Source: a virus
IMG/VR virus record: IMGVR_UViG_3300019129_000002
Span: 1 to 64,000 of that record
Strand: one strand, 5' to 3'
DNA length: 64,000 nt
The notes under the pieces: model-generated
What the model saw: only the letters and a program-made list of their open reading frames with translations
Database searches by the model: none
What the model was told of the DNA's origin: nothing
Shown: in pieces, positions 4,830 to 46,911 of the stretch
How the letters are laid out: every line of letters begins with the position of its first letter
Numbering within the stretch: position 1 is the stretch's first letter
Program-made: the position numbers and the translations under genes

Positions 4830-5459
4830 ATGTGTGCAATATTTGGGTGTGCCTTAGACAAAGCCACCTCTTATCAAAAACAACTATTGGAAGCAATAGG
4901 CAGAGAGTCTCAGATCCGGGGGAAGCACTCTACAGGGATTTCTTACATCCGTTTTGGAGTAATACGGACAGTAATCAAAACCGTACCCTCTAACCTATTC
5001 TTCGACGAAGTTATTGAATGGAAGTCTCCCGATAATCTTCGATTAATAGGACATTGTCGTTATCCTACATCTGCTTTGCGTTTCAATCAACCCCTACACT
5101 CTCCTGAGTTATCTATGGTGCATAACGGGGTAATCAGTCAACTCCCTAAAGAAAGATGGTTCGATGAGTTTGGTCTCCAGACAGAGACATCCAATGATTC
5201 CGAACTTATCCTAAGAGCGGTTGAGCAAGGTCTTGATCCAATAAAGTATTTCCCTGATGCTTCCATCGCTATGGCTACCTTAACGAAGGAAGGGGATATC
5301 CATGTCCAGAGAAACGGGAAACGTCCCTGTCACTTTCACCCTGTAGAGAATGGTTTTTTCTTCTTCTCAACCAAGAGTATAGGTGTCAGAGCAGGGGTTC
5401 CAGAAGAAGACATCATCAAAGTAAAATCTTACGGAAAAGAACATATTGAATACAACTAA
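4830..5459 (+). CDS. Class-II glutamine amidotransferase
   Basis: The protein begins MCAIFGCA: Cys2, freed by Met removal, is the nucleophile of Ntn-type (class II) glutaminases. RESQIRGKHSTGISY, LIGHCRYPTSA, MVHNGVISQ and the SNDSELILRAVEQG segment follow the family order. It lacks any synthase domain (209 aa), so ammonia from glutamine must be passed to a partner; the overlapping amidoligase gene is the obvious one. An AGGAGG site precedes the start. Class-II glutaminases next to phage amidoligases were noted by Iyer, Aravind and colleagues. Confidence 0.85.
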   Translation: MCAIFGCALDKATSYQKQLLEAIGRESQIRGKHSTGISYIRFGVIRTVIKTVPSNLFFDEVIEWKSPDNLRLIGHCRYPTSALRFNQPLHSPELSMVHNGVISQLPKERWFDEFGLQTETSNDSELILRAVEQGLDPIKYFPDASIAMATLTKEGDIHVQRNGKRPCHFHPVENGFFFFSTKSIGVRAGVPEEDIIKVKSYGKEHIEYN

Positions 5460-6312
5460 GACCTGGGGCTACGAAATAGAATGGGGTGATATCCCTCGAT
5501 GTTTACCTATTCCCGAACATCTAGGCTCGTGGGAATATGCTGAGGTTGACATTTTAAATCTTCGAGAACCTTATGCACTAATGGGGGTTGACCCTTTAGG
5601 TTTAGAGCCCCCTGTGGGAGGAGAAATCAACACCACTCCTGACAAATCTATCAAGGAACAAGTGGATAAGATTATCCGTCTCAGAGACTTATTCATTGAT
5701 TCAGGTTATCCTCCTACTGCATCCCTTGTTAATCATGGGCATTTACACGCATTTGTAAAAGGTTTGAAGGAAGATGTTCAAAGTCTAAAGAAACTGACCC
5801 GTTACATCCTGGATAATCAAGAAGACCTTATTAGAGCTTGCTATCAGTTCAAACCTGACCTAGAAATGAAGAAGCTGAAAAATGCGACTAGCTATCTGAA
5901 ACTGGACGGAGGACGAATGATGCCTGAATGGATGGGCAATAACGTTATTAACATGGCAGAAAGCTTTGAGGACTTCATTCGGATCCAATGTTGTGGAAAG
6001 GATGGAGTAAGCAGAGGGAGACCCTTCCGTTATGCAGTGAATACTTATTGTATGAAACATACAGGGACTATAGAGTTCCGTTGCTTCCGTAGTTCCACCA
6101 AACGAAGAGAGATTGAAAGTTGCTTCCGTATAGCGGAGAGGTTTATTGATAGTGCGTTGGGTGATCAAAAGCCTATAAAGGAAATCCTCCAAGAAGAAGA
6201 GTTCACTTTCCCTCCTTTTGTTTGGAACGCCGAACATTACAAAGCGTGGATTGAAACCAAGTGGGACAAATCTCGTGGTAACAAAAAACGCCAGTTTATA
6301 GAACTCTTGTAA
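5446..6312 (+). CDS. Amidoligase (COOH-NH2 ligase, glutamine-synthetase fold)
   Basis: The N-terminal WGYEIEWGD and central GGEINTTP, NHGHLHAF and C-terminal TIEFRCFRSS match the phage amidoligase family (Amidoligase_2-like), which joins a carboxylate to an amine with ATP; the Glu and His residues in these motifs are the expected metal ligands. Start is TTG 5446, overlapping the glutaminase by 14 bp, which implies coupled translation. Inferred role: adding an amine, perhaps glutamine-derived ammonia, to an acidic group on modified DNA or on a small metabolite. Peptide or cell-wall modification is the alternative. Confidence 0.75.
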   Translation: MNTTKTWGYEIEWGDIPRCLPIPEHLGSWEYAEVDILNLREPYALMGVDPLGLEPPVGGEINTTPDKSIKEQVDKIIRLRDLFIDSGYPPTASLVNHGHLHAFVKGLKEDVQSLKKLTRYILDNQEDLIRACYQFKPDLEMKKLKNATSYLKLDGGRMMPEWMGNNVINMAESFEDFIRIQCCGKDGVSRGRPFRYAVNTYCMKHTGTIEFRCFRSSTKRREIESCFRIAERFIDSALGDQKPIKEILQEEEFTFPPFVWNAEHYKAWIETKWDKSRGNKKRQFIELL

Positions 6313-6357
6313 CCTAACGGGTAAAATCCTCTGATGAATTAAATTAGAGGAAACCCC

Positions 6358-6888
6358 TTGGAAATTAGAGAGTGCAATAAAGAGATATTTAAATTAGCTT
6401 ACGAACAGAGTAACCCAAAAAATAACAAGTTCGCTAAAACTTTTATGTCTAAAGCGAAGGTAATGGAGTTATGGGATAAATGCTTCGGCATATATGATCC
6501 TAATGGCTCTCTTTTGGGAGCAGTGGTGGTAACCCTTTCTAAAAGGAAACCCCTTGTCGCTAACTTACAACTTCTCCACGTCTTCCATGAGCATCGAAAA
6601 AACGGTTATGGTAGATGTCTGATGGAGTTTGCACTTTCTCACGCCGTGGATCAAGGGGCAGAATATTTCAGAGTATCTTCCGAACCGTCAGCAGTTAAGT
6701 TCTATGAGAGCTTAGGGTTGCGGATGATATGTGAACAGAAGAGTGGTTCTCAATTATCTTTTTCTAAGATAGGGGGCAAAACTTTTGATCTTTGTTATAA
6801 TGATAGTGAGGACACTCAGTTCCAAAAAGTAATCAACCATAAAGGTCGGGGTGGTTGCGTAAAGCTTCTTAGAGAGGGCAAACCCTAG
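6358..6888 (+). CDS. GNAT-family N-acetyltransferase
   Basis: LLGAVVVTLS, LQLLHVFHEHRKNGYGRCLMEFALSHA (an R/KxxGYG acetyl-CoA loop) and FYESLGLRM follow the GNAT order, with about 35 extra residues at the C-terminus. Start is probably TTG 6358 after AGAGG. It lies in the modification cluster; GNATs in phage DNA-hypermodification loci are thought to acylate the attached amino group. Substrate here is unknown. Confidence 0.8.
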   Translation: MEIRECNKEIFKLAYEQSNPKNNKFAKTFMSKAKVMELWDKCFGIYDPNGSLLGAVVVTLSKRKPLVANLQLLHVFHEHRKNGYGRCLMEFALSHAVDQGAEYFRVSSEPSAVKFYESLGLRMICEQKSGSQLSFSKIGGKTFDLCYNDSEDTQFQKVINHKGRGGCVKLLREGKP

Positions 6889-6928
6889 TCCCATCTTTTT
6901 TGGTGATCTACCTTGTGCCTCCGGGTGT

Positions 6929-7990
6929 GTGAGGAATGTTAATGAAACTAAGAAAGAAAGGATGTACCAAACTTCTAGGAAAGAACAGTTTATCGAATGG
7001 TTCCGATGGGGAGTAGCTAACGGAGATTGTGACTCAGCTCTCTGGATGATAAACTATCTTAACAAACGTTACGAACACAACACGGAAGAAAAAATTTGGC
7101 TGTGTTGGCTCTACGGTAACACCTACTACTTGCCAACATCTTGGCTTCTTAAGCAAGAGTTTCCTGATGAGGAGCTTGCCAGTTACGAAAGACTTGATAA
7201 ATGGAATACAGAAAACTACAAACGTCTAAGGTATCAAACCGATACCAAGTGGTCTAAGGGTCATCTACCTGAGATGTATCAGAGTTATCATGAATGGCTG
7301 GGTGGCAAGACTCAACTTGAACGAATAAACGAGTTTGTCACAGATGATGAACAAGAGACCTTTGACAACCTTTGGAAAGAAGTCAAGAAGAAATGGTTTA
7401 AGTTCGGTAGATATACCGCTTGGTTTTATCTGCAAACTTTGAAGCACACGGTGAGTATCTCTATGGAACCTGCCACCCTGATGCTAAATGACTACTCAGG
7501 GAGTAAAAGTCATCGGAATGGTTTAATCTACGCTTTAGGGTTGGAGGGCTCTGGATGGTTGAATAAAAAGCTAACCATTGATCAGTACCAGTTCTTAGAG
7601 GGGGAGGCTTCTGAAATCCTTGAGGAGTGTCACAGGCGTTTTCCTGAACTTAAGGGGCAGATGGATAGGTTCGCCATGGAAACATCCCTTTGTTCATTCA
7701 AGAAGCTCTTCAGGGAGTCCAGGGGCCGTTACATGGGTTATTACCTTGATCGGCAATCCGAAGAAATCATGAGGGTGGAAAAGGATGGTTGGTTCGGAGT
7801 GGATTGGGAAGTCCTCTGGGATGGCAGAGAAGAAGTTATCGGTGAACCTTTAGCTCCTCTTTATGGGCGGGTTGACAAAAGCAAAATGAAGTTATTTGTA
7901 GAAGAAGGGAGGTTCCATTATAAAAGTGATCGGATTCATAGGGTGTCCAGCGTCCGGAAAGTCAACTCTAATGAGACGGTTAATGTCTGA
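6929..7990 (+). CDS. Amino acid:DNA transferase (aGPT-Pplase2/ADDT family)
   Basis: Segments WLCWLYGNTYYLPTSW, RLRYQTDTKWSKGHLP, KFGRYTAWFYLQTLK and HRNGLIYALG are hallmarks of the alpha-glutamyl/putrescinyl-thymine pyrophosphorylase clade 2, later shown in other phages to displace the pyrophosphate of activated hydroxymethyl-dU in DNA with an amino acid. Start is GTG 6929 or ATG 6962. The 3' end overlaps the kinase gene by 65 bp; the last 20 residues may therefore be constrained by two frames. This gene is the strongest single marker that the phage DNA carries a hypermodified thymine. Confidence 0.8.
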   Translation: MRNVNETKKERMYQTSRKEQFIEWFRWGVANGDCDSALWMINYLNKRYEHNTEEKIWLCWLYGNTYYLPTSWLLKQEFPDEELASYERLDKWNTENYKRLRYQTDTKWSKGHLPEMYQSYHEWLGGKTQLERINEFVTDDEQETFDNLWKEVKKKWFKFGRYTAWFYLQTLKHTVSISMEPATLMLNDYSGSKSHRNGLIYALGLEGSGWLNKKLTIDQYQFLEGEASEILEECHRRFPELKGQMDRFAMETSLCSFKKLFRESRGRYMGYYLDRQSEEIMRVEKDGWFGVDWEVLWDGREEVIGEPLAPLYGRVDKSKMKLFVEEGRFHYKSDRIHRVSSVRKVNSNETVNV

Positions 7991-8420
7991 GATAGGAGAT
8001 GAATGGGAGTTAGTTCAGGAAGGAATGATCCGGTTTCATTTCAATGCTCAGAAGAACGTTATGGTGATGGGGATATATGATGATAAAGTTTTTAGTGGAA
8101 CTGACCGTCTAGCTAAGAACGTGGGGCCAAAGTTCCGAGAATGGATTTCTGCATTCCACGAACAAGACACCGTTACCATATTGTGGGAAGGAGAGAGATT
8201 CTCTAACAACCCTACTATCCAACATCTGTTAAAAACTGTAGATACTGAACTCTATCTAGTGGAAGCTCCAGAGGAAGTTCTAGAAGAACGTAATCGTAAT
8301 CGGAGCAACCAGAATGACAAGTGGCGTAAAGGTATGAAGACTCGGATTAACAATCTGGTTAAAAAATATCCTATCAAACCCTTGTCTGAGTTCGACAAAA
8401 ATGTTATAATGAAAAAGTAA
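7926..8420 (+). CDS. 5-hydroxymethyl-deoxyuridine DNA kinase (HMUDK-like P-loop kinase)
   Basis: Walker A GCPASGKST at residues 6-14. The phrase VMGIYDDKVFSGTDRLAKNV and the acidic WEGERF are typical of the P-loop kinases that phosphorylate hydroxymethyluracil in DNA for later replacement. LID-like Arg residues lie in EERNRNRSNQNDKWRKG. GTG start inside the end of the transferase gene, so the pair is translationally coupled. A general nucleotide kinase is the alternative, but the FSGTDRL segment and the neighbour argue for HMUDK. Confidence 0.75.
   Translation: MIGFIGCPASGKSTLMRRLMSEIGDEWELVQEGMIRFHFNAQKNVMVMGIYDDKVFSGTDRLAKNVGPKFREWISAFHEQDTVTILWEGERFSNNPTIQHLLKTVDTELYLVEAPEEVLEERNRNRSNQNDKWRKGMKTRINNLVKKYPIKPLSEFDKNVIMKK
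8382..8410 (+). promoter_or_regulatory. Sigma70-like promoter inside kinase 3' end
   Basis: TTGTCT 8382-8387, 17 bp, TATAAT 8405-8410. Positioned for 8438. Confidence 0.6.
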
Positions 8421-8437: not shown

Positions 8438-8620
8438 ATGCCAACTTTAGAACCCCCTGATAGAAGACCCGACGGGAGAATAAAGAAGCCTGAACCCGTT
8501 GAAGTAAACCCTCTTGCTGGTTTGACTAGTGACCAGTTGCTTGATAAGAGAAATGTTTTTAAGAAACTGAAGCAACCCTTAAACGAAATTGATGCAGAAC
8601 TAAAAAGAAGACATGGTTAA
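8438..8620 (+). CDS. Small hypothetical protein (60 aa)
   Basis: Pro/Lys-rich N-terminus and a helical C-terminus. AAGGAGTAAGGAGT repeats give a strong ribosome site. Overlaps the methylase start by 8 bp. Not recognised. Confidence 0.6.
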   Translation: MPTLEPPDRRPDGRIKKPEPVEVNPLAGLTSDQLLDKRNVFKKLKQPLNEIDAELKRRHG

Positions 8621-21402: not shown

Positions 21403-23328
21403 ATGAAGACAAGACCAGATTGGTTCACACCCGAGGCGGTTGAGACGGTAAATCAAGGTTACTTATTACCGGGGGAAACAGTAAGAGGGGCTTTTGAAAG
21501 GGTTAGCAAACAGGCATCCAAGGATTTAGGCATTCCAGAAATAGAAGAGGAGATTTTCCATTGTCTTTGGAATGGCTTCGTAGGTTTAGCTTCACCCGTT
21601 TTCTCAAATTATGGTGCTTCTAGAGGAATGCCCATTTCCTGTTACAGTGTGGATGTAGGAGATTCTGTTCAAAGCATTTTCTCTCATTTAAAAGAAGTTT
21701 CCTTACTTTCCAAAAATGGCGGGGGAGTGGGGATTTATTTAGGAAACCTGAGACCTGCTGGAGCCCCTATTATGGGGGGAGGTAAGTCCAATGGGAGTGT
21801 TAGTTTTGCTCAAGTGTTTGATACTACTTCTAGGGTGGTCTCACAAGGAGGAGTTCGCAGGGGAGCTTTCTCTTTCTTCTTACCTATTGACCACCCTGAT
21901 TTACCTGAACTATTGAGGAGTAAACGTCACGATCAGGGTGACCCTCGAACATTCATCGATTCTAATATAGCTTTGACTGTCCCAGACAAGTGGATGGAAG
22001 AACTTATGGCAGGTGACCCTGAGAAGTTTGAGTTGATGACAGAAATCATTGAAACCCGTATGGCTTCAGGTTCCCCCTATCTTATCTACATAGATAACGT
22101 AAACAATCAGAACCCTGAGTGTTACAAAGAAAGAGGTTTGAAGGTTAGTACGAGTAATATTTGTACTGAAATTGTCCTCCATACTGATGAGAACCACACC
22201 TTTGTCTGTTGTCTAAGTTCTCTTAACCTCGCACGGTTTGGAGAGTGGAAAGATTTAAGGTTTAAATCCGGTAGATCAGTCCCTCAAGTTTGCACCTATT
22301 TATTAGAAGGTGTCTTGACAAACTTTATTCAAAGAACAAAAAATCAACCTGGAATGGGTCGTGCAAGACGGTTTGCTGAGAAGTCCCGTGCGATTGCAGT
22401 AGGTGTCATGGGTTACCACCTCTATCTTCAGAAGAAGGGTATCCCTTTTAAAAGTGATGAGGCTCGTAGAGAGAACATTCTTATCCACTCCTTCATCCGA
22501 AATGAATGTGACATAGCAAGTAGAGAGTTAGCCACCCTATACGGCGAACCTGAGTGGTGTGAGGGGTCTGGTTTCCGACATACTCATCGTACAGCCATAG
22601 CACCCACCAGGACTAACTCTGTTATCTGTGGGGCATTTAGTCAGGGTATTGAACCCGTAGATAGAAACTACTTTGTCGTTAAACAGATGCAAGGTGTATT
22701 TGTCCGTAAGAACCCTGTTCTGGAGGGCATCCTGGAAGAGTACGGGAAGAACACGGAAGAAGTGTGGAGTTCCATCAATGATAATGATGGTAGTGTTTTA
22801 CATTTGAGTTTCCTTCCTTGGGAAGTGAAACAAGTCTTCTTAACTGCTAGAGAGATAGACCAGACAGAAATTATCCGACAAGCTGCTGAACGTCAACCCT
22901 ACATCTGCCAAGCTCAATCGGTTAACTTATTCGTTAACTCCAACGTTACTGAAGAAGAGTTAATGTATTATCACTTGTTGGCTTGGAAGAAGAAAATGAA
23001 GTCCCTTTATTATTTGAAAGCTAAATCACCCCAGAATGAGAAAACTCCTTTAACTATCATTACTAAGGAGGGTTGCCCGTTCTGTGAAAAGGCTAAGTTG
23101 TTGGCACGGGAGAGGAACTATTATGTAACTGTAATGGACAGAGATGAGTACCCGGCTAAGGAACTCTTGAAGGATGTTTTCTGGAATACATACCCTAAGA
23201 TATTTATTGATGGGAAGTTCATCGGAGGGTATCAAGAACTATTAGAGGTTCAGCATAAAGGATTAGGCAACGTTGTAAACTTAGAAACAGAGGAAACGGA
23301 GGCAGATTGTGTCAGTTGTGAAGGATAA
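21403..23328 (+). CDS. nrdA: Ribonucleotide reductase class I alpha subunit with internal glutaredoxin domain
   Basis: Catalytic residues of an alpha subunit: Cys80 (SCYSVD), the NxCxE triad Asn252/Cys254/Glu256 (SNICTE) and Cys269/270. There is no N-terminal ATP-cone, and the core is short (about 540 aa). After the core end (MKSLYYLKAKS) a glutaredoxin domain begins: CPFC at 558-561, later TYPKIFIDGKFIGG. The chain then closes with the CVSC pair (636-639) that in class I enzymes swings into the active site to re-reduce it. The glutaredoxin therefore sits between core and redox tail. Overlaps the next gene by 20 bp. Confidence 0.9.
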   Translation: MKTRPDWFTPEAVETVNQGYLLPGETVRGAFERVSKQASKDLGIPEIEEEIFHCLWNGFVGLASPVFSNYGASRGMPISCYSVDVGDSVQSIFSHLKEVSLLSKNGGGVGIYLGNLRPAGAPIMGGGKSNGSVSFAQVFDTTSRVVSQGGVRRGAFSFFLPIDHPDLPELLRSKRHDQGDPRTFIDSNIALTVPDKWMEELMAGDPEKFELMTEIIETRMASGSPYLIYIDNVNNQNPECYKERGLKVSTSNICTEIVLHTDENHTFVCCLSSLNLARFGEWKDLRFKSGRSVPQVCTYLLEGVLTNFIQRTKNQPGMGRARRFAEKSRAIAVGVMGYHLYLQKKGIPFKSDEARRENILIHSFIRNECDIASRELATLYGEPEWCEGSGFRHTHRTAIAPTRTNSVICGAFSQGIEPVDRNYFVVKQMQGVFVRKNPVLEGILEEYGKNTEEVWSSINDNDGSVLHLSFLPWEVKQVFLTAREIDQTEIIRQAAERQPYICQAQSVNLFVNSNVTEEELMYYHLLAWKKKMKSLYYLKAKSPQNEKTPLTIITKEGCPFCEKAKLLARERNYYVTVMDRDEYPAKELLKDVFWNTYPKIFIDGKFIGGYQELLEVQHKGLGNVVNLETEETEADCVSCEG

Positions 23329-34507: not shown

Positions 34508-35767
34508 ATGGTATTGAGATTAGTAAAAACTCCCATCAGTTGCGAACACTTGTTAGGAACATTCCTTGATGAAAGCCATTTCGATAACTTATTCGATCAA
34601 GACGTGGACATCATCGATGCCAATACGGGGGAGGTTGCAGTATCCTTTCGGAAAGGTTGCTTAGATAGCTACCACTCCCTCTCCCCTAAAGCCTTAAAAC
34701 TGCTCAAAAGTGCCTCCAAGACAATCACATACTCTCGTAATCTTGCTGCTGGCAAAAAGCTTAACACCCGTACTGGTCCAGGTGGTAAATCTGGTCGCGA
34801 ACGTGCAACTCTCGGTGAGGTAGAACTACTCAACCAACTTATTAATAAACATCCAAGTGAAGTTAAGTTTGAAGTCCTCAACAAAACCGAACTCAGTGTC
34901 TTCCCCTGGTTGAAACCTAAGACTACCGACAACTTCGATCTCAAAGTGTGGGCTGAGGAACTCCGAGCAAATCTGGTTCCCGAACTATGGGCTACTGAAG
35001 CGAAAGCTATTAAGAAGAAATACCTCGCTTCCACTGGTAGAGGTAACGGAGCAGAGTCAGGTATAATAGGAGCCATTGAAAAAACCTCCCGTCAACCTTA
35101 CTGTCGTATGTCCTATATCGCCCGTAACAACTGGGAAACCTTCCAAGAGTGCTTCCCGCTGGTAGAACAAATCTCTGACATTTACCTTCAATGTTCTCCT
35201 AAACAACATGAACTCCAAAGATTAAAAGCTCAGAAAACTGACCCTCGTTATCTTATCGGTGACAGTGTGTTCTCTACCATTACCGTTAACCACAACTTCC
35301 GCACAGCAGCTCACCGTGACCCCGGCAACTATGGGAAATCCTTAGCACCTTTAGTAACCATTTCTGAAACTGGGTTCTCTGGTTCCTACTTGGTATTCCC
35401 TGAGTTCCGTGCTGCTGTAACACTACAACCTTCAGATTTCATCGTCTGTAACAATGCTCTTTATATTCATGGGAACACAGCCGCCGGCTCACTGGATGAT
35501 GAGCGTATCAGTTTAGTTCTTTATCTCCGCGAAGGTTTAGCGACTAAATGTTGCTCCTATGAAATTGAAGATGCCCGTCAGGAGTTTGTCTTCCACCTCC
35601 GTTCTCAGAAAGCGACTCACCCTTTGTCTACTGGAAACCGTTGGCAAGGGGTATACTCAGGTATGTGGGAAAAAGATGAGTGGTATAACTACTTAGAAGA
35701 AAAGCAAGGCAAAGAGGCCGTAGATTTTTGGAAAGAGTTCCGTATCCAACAAAAGAAAAATAAGTAA
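34508..35767 (+). CDS. TET/JBP-family 2-oxoglutarate/Fe(II) DNA dioxygenase
   Basis: The core reads NHNFRTAAHRDPGNYG, SGSYLVFPEF...AVTLQPSDF, YIHGNT and DDERISLVLYLRE. Iron ligands are His269, Asp271 and His321, with Arg333 for 2-oxoglutarate; the NFRTAxHxDxG and ERISxVxYxR strings are specific to TET/JBP. JBP enzymes oxidise thymine to 5-hydroxymethyluracil, TETs oxidise 5-methylcytosine. With a hydroxymethyl-dU kinase and amino-acid:DNA transferase at 6.9-8.4 kb, and no cytosine-C5 methylase seen, thymine is the likelier target. The N-terminal 220 residues form an extra domain; a GGKSGRERATLGE segment there is unexplained. Confidence 0.85.
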   Translation: MVLRLVKTPISCEHLLGTFLDESHFDNLFDQDVDIIDANTGEVAVSFRKGCLDSYHSLSPKALKLLKSASKTITYSRNLAAGKKLNTRTGPGGKSGRERATLGEVELLNQLINKHPSEVKFEVLNKTELSVFPWLKPKTTDNFDLKVWAEELRANLVPELWATEAKAIKKKYLASTGRGNGAESGIIGAIEKTSRQPYCRMSYIARNNWETFQECFPLVEQISDIYLQCSPKQHELQRLKAQKTDPRYLIGDSVFSTITVNHNFRTAAHRDPGNYGKSLAPLVTISETGFSGSYLVFPEFRAAVTLQPSDFIVCNNALYIHGNTAAGSLDDERISLVLYLREGLATKCCSYEIEDARQEFVFHLRSQKATHPLSTGNRWQGVYSGMWEKDEWYNYLEEKQGKEAVDFWKEFRIQQKKNK

Positions 35768-41592: not shown

Positions 41593-43368
41593 ATGGAAAC
41601 TAATCCTCTAGGTTATCCTGTCCTAAACAAAAAGAACGCAAAAAAGATTTTCGGTAACTTGAAACCGAAGAACTTTGATCCCTGGGGTATAGAAAATGCT
41701 AAGAGAAACCTTAAAAAATTTGGTATTCCTGTCCCAGTTTATTCAGAAGAAGTTTGGGAGGGTGACTTACCCGTCCCACCACTAAAGGGAGAGGATATTT
41801 TCTCTCATTTTGATAATGTAGCTAATGAACAAGTAGGGAGGTTTATAAAATATGGTGACGAACTGAAAAGTAACCGTGTACAAGTTGACTTTAATCTCTT
41901 ATATCATAATAACATTTCTCCTTCTTTCAAGACTTTCGTAGATACCTTACTGGACCATGTTAAGGGTGGAGTGTGGTTGAGAGCGGAACCCGTAGTAATA
42001 GAGGACGGTGAGGTATTTCTCTTCTTGGACCATGTTGATACTCCCACGGAACCTGGGTTTATCTTTGACACAGAAACATTCGTAAAGTACAAGAACTACC
42101 CAATCATCGGGACAGCTTGCTCCCACAAAGCTATCTATCTATGGATTGCTTCTGAACTGTTGGATCCGAGTCTTCCGAAGGAACAATGGGATCAGTTCAA
42201 CTTTATCAATGTAGGGACTGACAACTTTATTGTTGCCCATAACGCAGCGTTCGATAGAACTAGAACTCAGGCGGCTTACCAGTTAAACAAGCTTGGCCCT
42301 GATAACTTCTGGTTTGATACTCAGTCTGCTCACATTGCTGTCAGCGGGTTAGCTTCTGGTCAACGTTGGCTCTACGCTCTAAATGGGAAAGACCCTAGCT
42401 TACTGTCGGCTGCTGAGAAACGTAAGCTCCGTTACAAACCTGAATGGTTAGGAGAAGGTTCTACCAACTCCTTAGTCGAAGTTTATAACTTTCATGTTGC
42501 ACAACCAAAGTTTCTACTTAACCCTGACACTAAGTTCCTGGGTGATGAAGACAAGGAAACTCGGGATATATTTGTTCTGTCAGAAACCTTGCAGGAGATT
42601 AAGGATCAACTTTACGTAGCCGTTGAGTACGCTATAAAGGACTCCCTCTACACCCATGAACTCTTCCAGGTGTTATGGGGGAAATATAAAGAAACGACTC
42701 CTTCTAAGATCGCTTTTGTAGGTCATTACCACCTTGGAGCATCTAAGGTTCCCTTAGTCCCTGATTGGGAAGAGTGGAAGGAAGAAGCCGAAAAGGTGTG
42801 GGAGTCTCGTAACCAGCAAATGGAAGACAACGTCAAAGCTATTGCTAAGAAAGAGTTCGAGAAGTGGCAAAAGTCTGTCCTTGACGAGAAAGCAGGAGTA
42901 GTTAAGTATATTCACAGTAACTACCCTAAGTTCATGCCTCTACTCTTCGGTTTCAAGACGATGGAGGAACAAATAGAATTTGTTGAGGAGTATGCCCACA
43001 TTGATAAGTTTATTCGCAACTTCTGTAATAAGAAGGGTGAATGGACTTTCAAATGGGTAAAGGGTAGCAACAAGTTTAAACGCCCCGACCTTGACAAGCA
43101 TATTCTAAAGTGGTTAGAACTGCTAGGGTTTGACTGGCATCCTAAGACTACTAAGATGATAGATGACGACTCTTGGATGCGTCAGCTTGACTGGAAGTTT
43201 ACGACTACAGGTACCTATGCCTATAAACCTAACTGGTATCGTAAGTTCCAAGAGAAAACTGTTTCAACTAAGAACAGAACTGCACACTTATTATTGAGGC
43301 TTAAGTGGGATGGAAAGCCTATTTTATTTACCAAAGACAAAGGATGGTGTTTTGATGACGGAAACTAA
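41593..43368 (+). CDS. Pol-gamma-like DNA polymerase, piece 1: 3'-5' exonuclease and spacer
   Basis: 591 aa. Exo I DTE (Asp159-Glu161), Exo II AHNAAFD (Asp221) and Exo III YAIKD (Tyr346, Asp350). Between them the phrases ISxHMAxSGLxS-like HIAVSGLASGQRW and NSLVEVYNFHV match animal mitochondrial DNA polymerase gamma closely. The end, PNWYRKFQEK...LKWDGKPILFTKDKGW, corresponds to the Pol gamma segment ending near HGWGY, where the spacer meets the palm. No polymerase motifs follow. Proofreading subunit of a multi-part enzyme. Confidence 0.85.
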   Translation: METNPLGYPVLNKKNAKKIFGNLKPKNFDPWGIENAKRNLKKFGIPVPVYSEEVWEGDLPVPPLKGEDIFSHFDNVANEQVGRFIKYGDELKSNRVQVDFNLLYHNNISPSFKTFVDTLLDHVKGGVWLRAEPVVIEDGEVFLFLDHVDTPTEPGFIFDTETFVKYKNYPIIGTACSHKAIYLWIASELLDPSLPKEQWDQFNFINVGTDNFIVAHNAAFDRTRTQAAYQLNKLGPDNFWFDTQSAHIAVSGLASGQRWLYALNGKDPSLLSAAEKRKLRYKPEWLGEGSTNSLVEVYNFHVAQPKFLLNPDTKFLGDEDKETRDIFVLSETLQEIKDQLYVAVEYAIKDSLYTHELFQVLWGKYKETTPSKIAFVGHYHLGASKVPLVPDWEEWKEEAEKVWESRNQQMEDNVKAIAKKEFEKWQKSVLDEKAGVVKYIHSNYPKFMPLLFGFKTMEEQIEFVEEYAHIDKFIRNFCNKKGEWTFKWVKGSNKFKRPDLDKHILKWLELLGFDWHPKTTKMIDDDSWMRQLDWKFTTTGTYAYKPNWYRKFQEKTVSTKNRTAHLLLRLKWDGKPILFTKDKGWCFDDGN

Positions 43369-44796: not shown

Positions 44797-45048
44797 ACAC
44801 TTTACAAGAGTAAGGAAACGAAGGCTAAGCTCCTTAACTCCACCCGTGTCTATCTTCTGAAGGTTTACTACCTTGCTCAATCTGAAGACGCTCCTGAAAA
44901 GGAGGCAAAAATAGGTCGGGTCTTGTCAAACTACCCTATAACCAGTTATAATGACTTTGGTTACACCGAAATGTTTGAACTAAACCAACACACAATGGAG
45001 TTTATAGAAAACTATGGTATTGCGTCAAATTCCTCACCCATCGGGTAA
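44797..45048 (+). CDS. Hypothetical protein (about 83 aa) before polymerase piece 2
   Basis: ATG 44797 is preferred, as an upstream in-frame ATG 44767 overlaps the -10 box. Helical (KETKAKLLNSTRVYLLKVYYL). It overlaps piece 2 by 35 bp and contains that gene's promoter. Confidence 0.45.
   Translation, partial: TLYKSKETKAKLLNSTRVYLLKVYYLAQSEDAPEKEAKIGRVLSNYPITSYNDFGYTEMFELNQHTMEFIENYGIASNSSPIG
44923..44952 (+). promoter_or_regulatory. Sigma70-like promoter of polymerase piece 2
   Basis: TTGTCA 44923-44928, 18 bp, TATAAT 44947-44952; 61 bp before the ATG of piece 2. Confidence 0.7.
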
Positions 45049-45625
45049 GAAGGGGCAGAATGTTGGGGTTTTACTCTCAAAGGACTTCGTAAAGGCCCTG
45101 GAAAGTGGTCTGTTGAGTTCTGACTACCCTGAAGCTGAGGAAGCTCTTCAAATAGCAAGGGAGACAAGCTACTGGACATCTGTTAGGAAGAGGGTGTTTG
45201 ACCGTATCTTCCGTGAGGTTAAAAACCCTTATGGTGAGAATGCTAACATCACTCTCCCTGACATTCTTCCACATGGAACCGTAACACGCCGAACCGTAGA
45301 AAACCTTATGGTTACGATGTGTAGCACCAAAAACTATAAAATAGGGTCTGAGCTAAAAACCCGTATCCAAGCTCCAGATGGTTGGAAGGTAGTGGGTGCG
45401 GACTTTGACTCTCAAGAGTTGAGTATCGCTGGTATCTATGCCGATAGTTGGGAGGGAGGGATAAATGGTTGCACAGCACTAGGTTTCCAAGTTCTATCTG
45501 GTTCCAAGGCAAAGGGTTCTGATGGACACACAGTCTTTGCACGTAACATGATGGAAGAGGAGTACAAAGATCTTTACTTTGATCCAGAACTCGGCATCTT
45601 AGAAAAGGTTACTATTGATGAGTAA
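45014..45625 (+). CDS. Pol-gamma-like DNA polymerase, piece 2: palm with motif A
   Basis: 203 aa. Motif A VVGADFDSQELSIAG with metal-binding Asp130; upstream HGTVTRRTVENL and GSELKTRIQAPDGW, downstream GCTALGFQVLSG and KGSDGHTVFA. These run parallel to human Pol gamma (GTITRRAVE, GSELKAMVQAPPGY, GADVDSQELW, GCTAFGW, GTDLHS). It begins at the LPH...NVG point and ends just before the fingers helix. It cannot be an active polymerase alone because motifs B and C are in piece 3. Confidence 0.88.
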   Translation: MVLRQIPHPSGKKGQNVGVLLSKDFVKALESGLLSSDYPEAEEALQIARETSYWTSVRKRVFDRIFREVKNPYGENANITLPDILPHGTVTRRTVENLMVTMCSTKNYKIGSELKTRIQAPDGWKVVGADFDSQELSIAGIYADSWEGGINGCTALGFQVLSGSKAKGSDGHTVFARNMMEEEYKDLYFDPELGILEKVTIDE

Positions 45626-46095: not shown

Positions 46096-46911
46096 ATGGA
46101 TTACCCTACAAAGACCTTAAAAGACGGGACAGAAGTTTATCAAATCAACGGTGAGTGGTATAAAAAGATTGACAAGGAAAGGAAAGCTCTCCTAAAAGAA
46201 TATAGAGAGTGTGCCAAAGTCTCTAATTATAGCATTCTTTACGGGGGAGGGGCTTATGCTTCCTCTATACCTTGGAAACAATCTTTCCCTATGATGGATC
46301 AGGAAGTTCTTTTTAGCAAGCTTAAAAAAGCCATGGTTAAAAAGAAGGGAGTAAGAGATAAGGAAACTGGACATCTCAGAGGAGGTACAGATTCCGAAGC
46401 TTTTTGTAAGATGGAACAGATTGCTCTGAAAAGTAGGGTTCCCACGTTGCCCGCACTGGGGACTCAAATCACCACGGCTCTAAGACCCAAGGCAGTAAAC
46501 AGTGACTTCGTAACGGGTAGGTTGAATTGGGGAATCCAATGTTCCGGATCTGAGTTCTTAGCTATCTTCCTAACTGCCATCCATTGGTTAGCAGAGGAAA
46601 AAGAAATCCCTTGTCAGTTCATCATCTCCATCCACGATGAAATCTGGTTTATGGTTCCCGAAGAGTATGCTTCGGCATTCGTGGTCTTATTTCAGATTGC
46701 TCACGTTTTTACATGGGCTTACTTCCAAGCTGCTTGTGGGATCTACGAGTTACCTTTGGCAAGAGCTTTCTTCTCAGGTGTGTCATTAGATGACAGAGTG
46801 AGGAAGTCTCCTTACGAATGTACCAAAACTCTAAGCAACCAGAAAGACGAGTCTGATGGGGAAGAAATCACCATGTGGGACTTAGAAAAACGCGGTTGGT
46901 TACATGACTAA
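46096..46911 (+). CDS. Pol-gamma-like DNA polymerase, piece 3: fingers and palm with motifs B and C
   Basis: 271 aa. Motif B RECAKVSNYSILYGGG (Arg37, Lys41), motif C ISIHDEIWFMV (Asp181, Glu182). GGTDSEAFCKMEQIAL, LRPKAVNSDFVTGRLNW and ARAFFSGVSLDDRVRK parallel human Pol gamma GGTESEMFNKLESIA, LEPSAV, TSRVNW and VAFFSAVDIDRCLRK. The tail PYECTKTLSNQ also matches. Own ribosome site (CCAGGAGACAAA). Together with pieces 1 and 2 all catalytic motifs of a proofreading family-A polymerase are accounted for. Confidence 0.88.
   Translation: MDYPTKTLKDGTEVYQINGEWYKKIDKERKALLKEYRECAKVSNYSILYGGGAYASSIPWKQSFPMMDQEVLFSKLKKAMVKKKGVRDKETGHLRGGTDSEAFCKMEQIALKSRVPTLPALGTQITTALRPKAVNSDFVTGRLNWGIQCSGSEFLAIFLTAIHWLAEEKEIPCQFIISIHDEIWFMVPEEYASAFVVLFQIAHVFTWAYFQAACGIYELPLARAFFSGVSLDDRVRKSPYECTKTLSNQKDESDGEEITMWDLEKRGWLHD

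Follow-up and report, generated by a model that had tools for sequence, protein, structure and literature searches.

Among the described systems closest to the locus reported here are the kinetoplastid enzymes JBP1 and JBP2 of base J synthesis, which have the TET/JBP fold and catalytic residues in common with the present protein and share its predicted reaction, the conversion of thymine in DNA to 5-hydroxymethyluracil (hmU). Unlike JBP1 and JBP2, this protein is encoded by a phage, and its hmU would pass first to a kinase and then to a transferase for amino acids; in some of its phage relatives a glycosyltransferase follows the TET gene, as in base J synthesis. Phage TET/JBP proteins are said to have been predicted as sources of hydroxymethyl-pyrimidines for further modification (Iyer 2013), and the phage TETs tested reportedly act on 5-methylcytosine (5mC) and occur with C5 methylases (Burke 2021). 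To our knowledge, the only phage TETs assayed are 5mC-oxidising. Burke 2021 is cited for phage TETs in the available part of PMC12730594. Searches of a literature that included few subscription papers turned up no phage TET assayed as a thymine oxidase.

Details of the kinase and transfer steps in thymidine hypermodification are reportedly given by Lee 2018 and 2022. In the excerpts available of PMC6449724, these steps are described for phages M6, ViI and phiW-14, whose hmU arises at the nucleotide level and enters the DNA at replication. Like these phages, the present virus has an amino acid:DNA transferase (ADDT), and its P-loop kinase is a candidate hmU DNA kinase, but it has a TET instead of a gene matching PF00303 (thymidylate synthase / dUMP hydroxymethylase), and an added set comprising a glutamine amidotransferase (GAT), an amidoligase-like protein and a GNAT acetyltransferase. 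A further parallel is found in phages that amidate carboxymethylcytosine, where glutamine is proposed to supply the ammonia for a glutaminase-coupled ligase, as here; in contrast, their modified base is cytosine, their ligases are AMP-forming and TET is unmentioned in the available text of the paper (PMC12783734).

A TET-like protein, aGPT-Pplase2 and a 5-hmU kinase have already been named together, as part of a five-gene set in Rhodococcus phage Tonitrus (PMC11955845, available in part), and the annotation of Gordonia phage Wooper lists a 'Tet-like J-binding protein', aGPT-Pplase2 and 5-hmU DNA kinase in a row. The present system has counterparts of all three, its kinase being a predicted one, but the TETs of Tonitrus and Wooper are very distant, a ParB-like gene heads their set, and no GAT, amidoligase or GNAT is named in the stretches shown. 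The link from TET to kinase and transferase made in the original prediction is thus not new in itself, the trio being in print and in annotation; what seems to be added here is a variant with two TET classes distinguished by their neighbours, an exchange between TET and PF00303, the GAT/amidoligase/GNAT set and a swap to glycosyltransferases. Such annotation extends to another actinophage, Prince, with a gene labelled 'thymidine hydroxylase'.

The window, the whole stretch of 64,000 nucleotides analysed here, comes from a virus of bacteria and represents all but the end of a record of 64,890 bases that is possibly incomplete. Its TET gene (Table 1) runs from ATG to stop over 419 codons (419 aa), and the opposite strand contains many stops throughout. 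Assignment of the product to the TET/JBP dioxygenases, first made from the sequence alone, is borne out by Pfam Tet_JBP PF12851, which matches residues 192-342 (E = 7.1e-21, its 74.6 bits exceeding the 34.9-bit cut-off), and by phrog_24024, a phage family of unknown function that spans the whole protein (E = 5.6e-75). Both strings picked out at that stage, NFRTA and ERIS, are present, as are the residues H269, D271, H321 and R333, and these four residues are invariant in 50/50 non-redundant relatives of the same clade, 14/14 members of the C5-methylase-linked clade described below and 9/9 other isolate phages. The 2-oxoglutarate-binding role of R333 is established for the TET/JBP family.

Table 1. 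Coordinates of the TET gene, its catalytic residues and the partner block in the window.
Feature	Position	Strand	Evidence
TET/JBP-family Fe(II)/2-oxoglutarate dioxygenase, predicted thymine to 5-hydroxymethyluracil in DNA	34508..35767	+	PF12851, phrog_24024, model
Fe-binding HxD motif (H269, D271)	35312..35320	+	Sequence; conserved in 73/73 aligned TETs
H321, third Fe ligand	35468..35470	+	Alignment of relatives
R333, 2-oxoglutarate-binding arginine	35504..35506	+	Alignment; role from family knowledge
Class-II glutamine amidotransferase (GAT), predicted to donate ammonia	4830..5459	+	PF13522 E = 3.7e-6; orthologue directly 3' of TET in relatives
Carboxylate-amine ligase-like protein (GCS/glutamine-synthetase fold), predicted GAT-partner amidoligase	5446..6312, start codon uncertain	+	Model, Foldseek
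GNAT acetyltransferase, predicted to cap an amine with an acyl group	6358..6888	+	PF13673 E = 2.6e-10
ADDT, amino acid:DNA transferase (aGPT-Pplase clade 2)	6929..7990	+	PF18724 E = 5.6e-22
P-loop DNA-base kinase, predicted 5-hmU DNA kinase	7926..8420	+	AAA_33 E = 8.2e-8

No relative exceeds 37% identity to the protein, which lies on a long branch in the TET tree, and a sequence search of the PDB returned CcTet as its sole match (E = 1.5). A whole-protein model built from 44 sequences (pLDDT 86) has its closest structures in CMD1, TET2, CcTet and NgTET1 (Z 17-20). CMD1 ranks first (Z 20.3), about 1-2 units from TET2, CcTet and NgTET1, which would suit an enzyme with another oxidation target, such as a CMD1-like transfer, RNA or protein; this is highly improbable given that the neighbours of the TET gene are all DNA-base enzymes and that AlkB-type structures score well below the four (best Z 14.0). 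The N-terminal 220 residues had been suggested to form a separate domain choosing target sites, an idea that finds no support: this part is conserved throughout the clade and, because the structural alignments to CMD1, TET2, CcTet and NgTET1 start at residue 1, much of it resembles, in the model, a leading portion of the catalytic body that carries inserts.

Relatives were collected by scanning IMG/VR with a five-sequence TET alignment, which gave at least 562, and the best 80 of these were kept, a selection that favours TETs resembling P0001. Used singly as queries against IMG/VR, P0001 and P0002 matched nothing beyond the same virus. The resulting 88 TET loci comprise these 80 contigs, seven isolates and the window, with Melnitz as the outgroup, leaving a clade of 87. 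Many of the contigs are (T4-like) relatives, so locus counts do not represent independent events.

Across the 88 loci, the window counted, orthologue clusters 3' of TET include GAT at 44, the amidoligase-like protein at 30, GNAT at 40, ADDT at 42 and the kinase at 41, at the relatives' loci always on the same strand as TET. The order TET, GAT, amidoligase-like protein (where present), GNAT, ADDT, kinase is unbroken at all loci: 23 have the complete series, 10 the same without the amidoligase-like gene, five have TET, ADDT and kinase, and 12 have shorter sets, the run from GAT to kinase being seen at 33. The distance from TET to ADDT (41 loci) has a median of 2,010 and a maximum of 3,722 bases. 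The kinase/transferase cluster of the original prediction is a real one, formed by ADDT and the P-loop kinase within the window's block at 4830-8420. As TET heads the block in relatives, the window, where 26 kb lie between the two, has this conserved unit in split form, and the split recurs in a second contig from this virus. Whole records were also searched (n = 50: the 42 longest of the 80 contigs, seven isolates and the window record), and ADDT was found in 20/50 of them against 378/50,697 phage records by tblastn, a rough base rate as the two methods differ. Further block members are a PLP-fold enzyme in contig L065 (11457-12446) and a radical SAM/B12-binding protein in L089 (12009-13502); both are of kinds that belong to known thymidine pathways, which counts in favour of thymine.

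Within the block, the GAT gene and the next overlap by 14 bases and ADDT and kinase by 65, with gaps of 40-45 bases elsewhere. The ADDT is about 30% identical to those of ViI-group phages. The kinase scores 26.0 bits with PF18751 (cut-off 27), has its best tblastn matches in the TET phages Cr30 and Melnitz, and can be aligned to the Wooper kinase annotated '5-hmU DNA kinase'; PDB sequence searches with the window ADDT and kinase returned chance matches alone. For the protein encoded from 5446 (model pLDDT 85), the top Foldseek matches, all of them carboxylate-amine ligases with a GCS/glutamine-synthetase fold, are YbdK, glutamine synthetase and PafA (E about 4e-3 to 7e-3, probability at most 0.99, TM about 0.4), and Pfam Amidoligase_2 (PF12224) matches all three members of this type that were tried, below its cut-off (E 0.005-0.064). 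We read it, from the model, as a candidate amidoligase using GAT-derived ammonia, a step made plausible by the glutaminase-coupled ligase proposed, in the part of PMC12783734 available, for the carboxymethylcytosine phages.

Whether a C5 methylase accompanies the TET bears on its substrate. None had been noticed in the sequence, and PF00145 has no match in the whole, possibly incomplete, 64,890-base record; the remaining methylases of the window are, as proposed, amino-methylases, of the D12 type at 8613 and 31859 and of the Eco57I/N6_Mtase type at 1803/2642. The last of these is split and permuted, its first ORF (1803-2645) matching a later section of Eco57I-type methylases and its second (2642-2986) an early section of N6_Mtase.

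PF00145 was likewise absent from all 49 whole records of the window's TET clade, complete genomes among them, and from nine further isolates with TETs of the Mudslide type (see below). The Melnitz-type clade of phage TETs, collected as a contrast and taken as the 5mC type, belongs to the same superfamily and has the same catalytic residues, but carries an adjacent C5 methylase at 67 of 72 loci; the other five begin at or within TET, so that the methylase is present at every locus with upstream DNA. In a tree of 64 of 159 TETs (sequences more than 85% identical and those shorter than 250 aa removed), a long branch with an SH-aLRT support of 100 divides the two clades and places the window TET outside the C5-methylase-linked one. 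An alignment of both clades and the nine other isolates yielded no residue separating thymine from 5mC enzymes: 21 columns split the two clades (at least 90% in each), but the nine isolates, which have no C5 methylase and in four cases have ADDT, side with either clade by column (V at 323, for example, being that of the 5mC-type clade), and no marker residue is claimed for this reason.

It is unlikely, in our estimation, that the TET instead oxidises 5mC made by the host or by an unseen phage methylase, with kinase and ADDT acting on 5-hydroxymethylcytosine (hmC). The distribution of PF00145, in none of the 49 records and nine isolates against all 5mC-type loci with upstream DNA, argues against it, although the phage TETs tested so far reportedly act on 5mC (Burke 2021), and the possible incompleteness of the window record means that a C5 methylase or a hydroxymethylase could be missing from it. 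The 5mC alternative also draws on the P-loop kinase, a relative of which is present at 28 of the 72 C5-methylase-linked loci (L009, L111-L181), so that the kinase alone is not a pointer to thymine. Its presence beside these TETs hints at a phosphorylated 5-hydroxymethylcytosine.

Phages with ADDT provide a second line of comparison. Ten were drawn from ranked lists before being checked for PF00303 or TET, and in nine of them PF00303 matches (35-86 bits) whereas PF12851 does not, these nine being mostly ViI-like and so not independent events. The tenth, Mycobacterium phage Mudslide, has no PF00303; a TET adjoins its ADDT, and a kinase follows ADDT. The Mudslide TET match is under the Pfam cut-off (27.8 bits; E = 5.1e-8). 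Nine isolates with TETs of this type, Mudslide counted, have PF00303 in 0/9 and ADDT in 4/9, and the cultured phages Mudslide, Kozie and Wooper all combine TET and ADDT without PF00303. The Mudslide-type TETs are a second, very distant TET group with the same gene partnership. That TET-less ADDT phages have a PF00303 gene instead is a further argument against 5mC as the substrate.

In the possibly incomplete window record, both PF00303 and ThyX (PF02511) are absent. Cr30 encodes TET, ADDT and a canonical thymidylate synthase (373 bits), and the difference between this score and the weak, divergent PF00303 matches (35-86 bits) of the nine TET-less ADDT phages fits an ordinary thymidylate synthase in Cr30 and hydroxymethylases in the nine. 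ThyX has been proposed as the hydroxymethyl-dUMP synthase of phage SP-15 (PMC5977210, available in part), and among 25 records searched it was found in eight, including all six contigs longer than 45 kb. These observations, and the 26 kb between TET and block in the window, could be taken to suggest that the block uses nucleotide-level hmU from ThyX or from a missing hydroxymethylase while TET serves another end. This is somewhat less probable still than oxidation of 5mC, as the block opens with TET in relatives, and ThyX is absent from the window record and, in the 25-record search, from Cr30 and Mudslide. ThyX is also present in contigs where a glycosyltransferase replaces ADDT; it does not track ADDT, and is accordingly read as probably an ordinary dTMP supply.

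Thymine is favoured as the substrate because the clade has no C5 methylase, because TET and PF00303 exchange in ADDT phages and because the Mudslide-type isolates have the same partnership. The window TET is probably a JBP-like thymine hydroxylase that would convert thymine of already synthesised DNA to hmU by hydroxylating its 5-methyl group, taking the place of dUMP hydroxymethylase, the starting enzyme of known thymidine-hypermodifying phages. The phage kinase would then convert hmU to phospho-hmU, and ADDT would exchange the phosphate for the amine of an amino acid. GAT and the amidoligase-like protein may amidate the carboxylate thus attached, or join a second amine, and GNAT may acetylate an amine, the outcome being bulky thymine derivatives that could shield phage DNA from nucleases. 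The chemistry is deduced throughout from gene families, and the protective role is likewise a deduction; the presence, synteny and order of these families were observed, as were the absence of C5 methylases across the clade and the PF00303 exchange. The thymine-type oxygenase feeding a kinase/transferase cluster that the original prediction put forward thus gains good support from synteny, from a clade without C5 methylases and from replacement of PF00303, while the substrate itself is something that we infer.

The genes that follow TET vary between relatives. Of the 87 loci, 50 extend 5 kb or more past TET, and among these 25 have ADDT, 21 a glycosyltransferase (13 of the Glycos_transf_1 type and eight of the TAGT type) and five neither, and Cr30 alone has both. 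These labels interleave on the TET tree, where 15 changes are needed for ADDT, five for Glycos_transf_1 and six for TAGT, suggesting that a single hydroxymethyl-pyrimidine made by TET serves decorators that can be exchanged. The 'TAGT' family (PF20691), which adjoins some TETs of the window's clade, has been described as a cytosine-glucosylation enzyme of T2/T6, acting on glucosylated hmC (PMC13216743 and PMC13390438, both available in part), and its position counts in favour of the 5mC alternative. In Mycobacterium phage Indlovu (L204) and Arthrobacter phage Altadena (L209), the genes after TET encode a glycosyltransferase and a 'glucosaminyl deacetylase', a set that may correspond to a base-J-like amino sugar on hmU.

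Returning to thymine as the preferred substrate, we give about even chances to a broader proposal: a widespread phage system in which a JBP-like TET oxidises thymine in finished DNA and hmU serves as a universal handle, with one locus swapping between sugars and an amino acid that a glutaminase/amidoligase pair amidates and that is then acetylated. In its sugar form the modification would be a phage relative of base J, and two substrate classes of phage TET, for thymine and for 5mC, could be distinguished by their neighbours.

A thymine-oxidising phage enzyme, if confirmed, would be a prokaryotic counterpart of JBP, bearing on the origin of base J synthesis, and a tool for writing hmU into existing DNA. 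It would also make thymidine hypermodification possible without an altered nucleotide pool and gainable by one small gene block, and the glycosyltransferase loci predict phage DNA resembling that with base J. The availability of Mudslide, Kozie, Wooper, LilMcDreamy and Cr30 as cultured carriers of the genes makes the idea directly testable.

Several TET genes carry other labels in public records, those of the Mycobacterium phages BrownCNA, Heath and JAMaL and of Cr30 and DLP6 being named 'queuine tRNA-ribosyltransferase' or 'SNF2 DNA repair protein', and both labels look wrong. DLP6 has TET and no ADDT; 18 restriction enzymes were tried on its DNA, according to a sentence in the available part of PMC5349666 (section 13) that does not give the outcome.

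Elsewhere in the window, DNA polymerase is divided over at least three ORFs (41593-43368, 45014-45625 and 46096-46911), which correspond in turn to consecutive stretches of phrog_22619 and have other ORFs lying between them, and the large subunit of ribonucleotide reductase (21403-23328) has a C-terminal thioredoxin-like match (phrog_22, residues 533-615).
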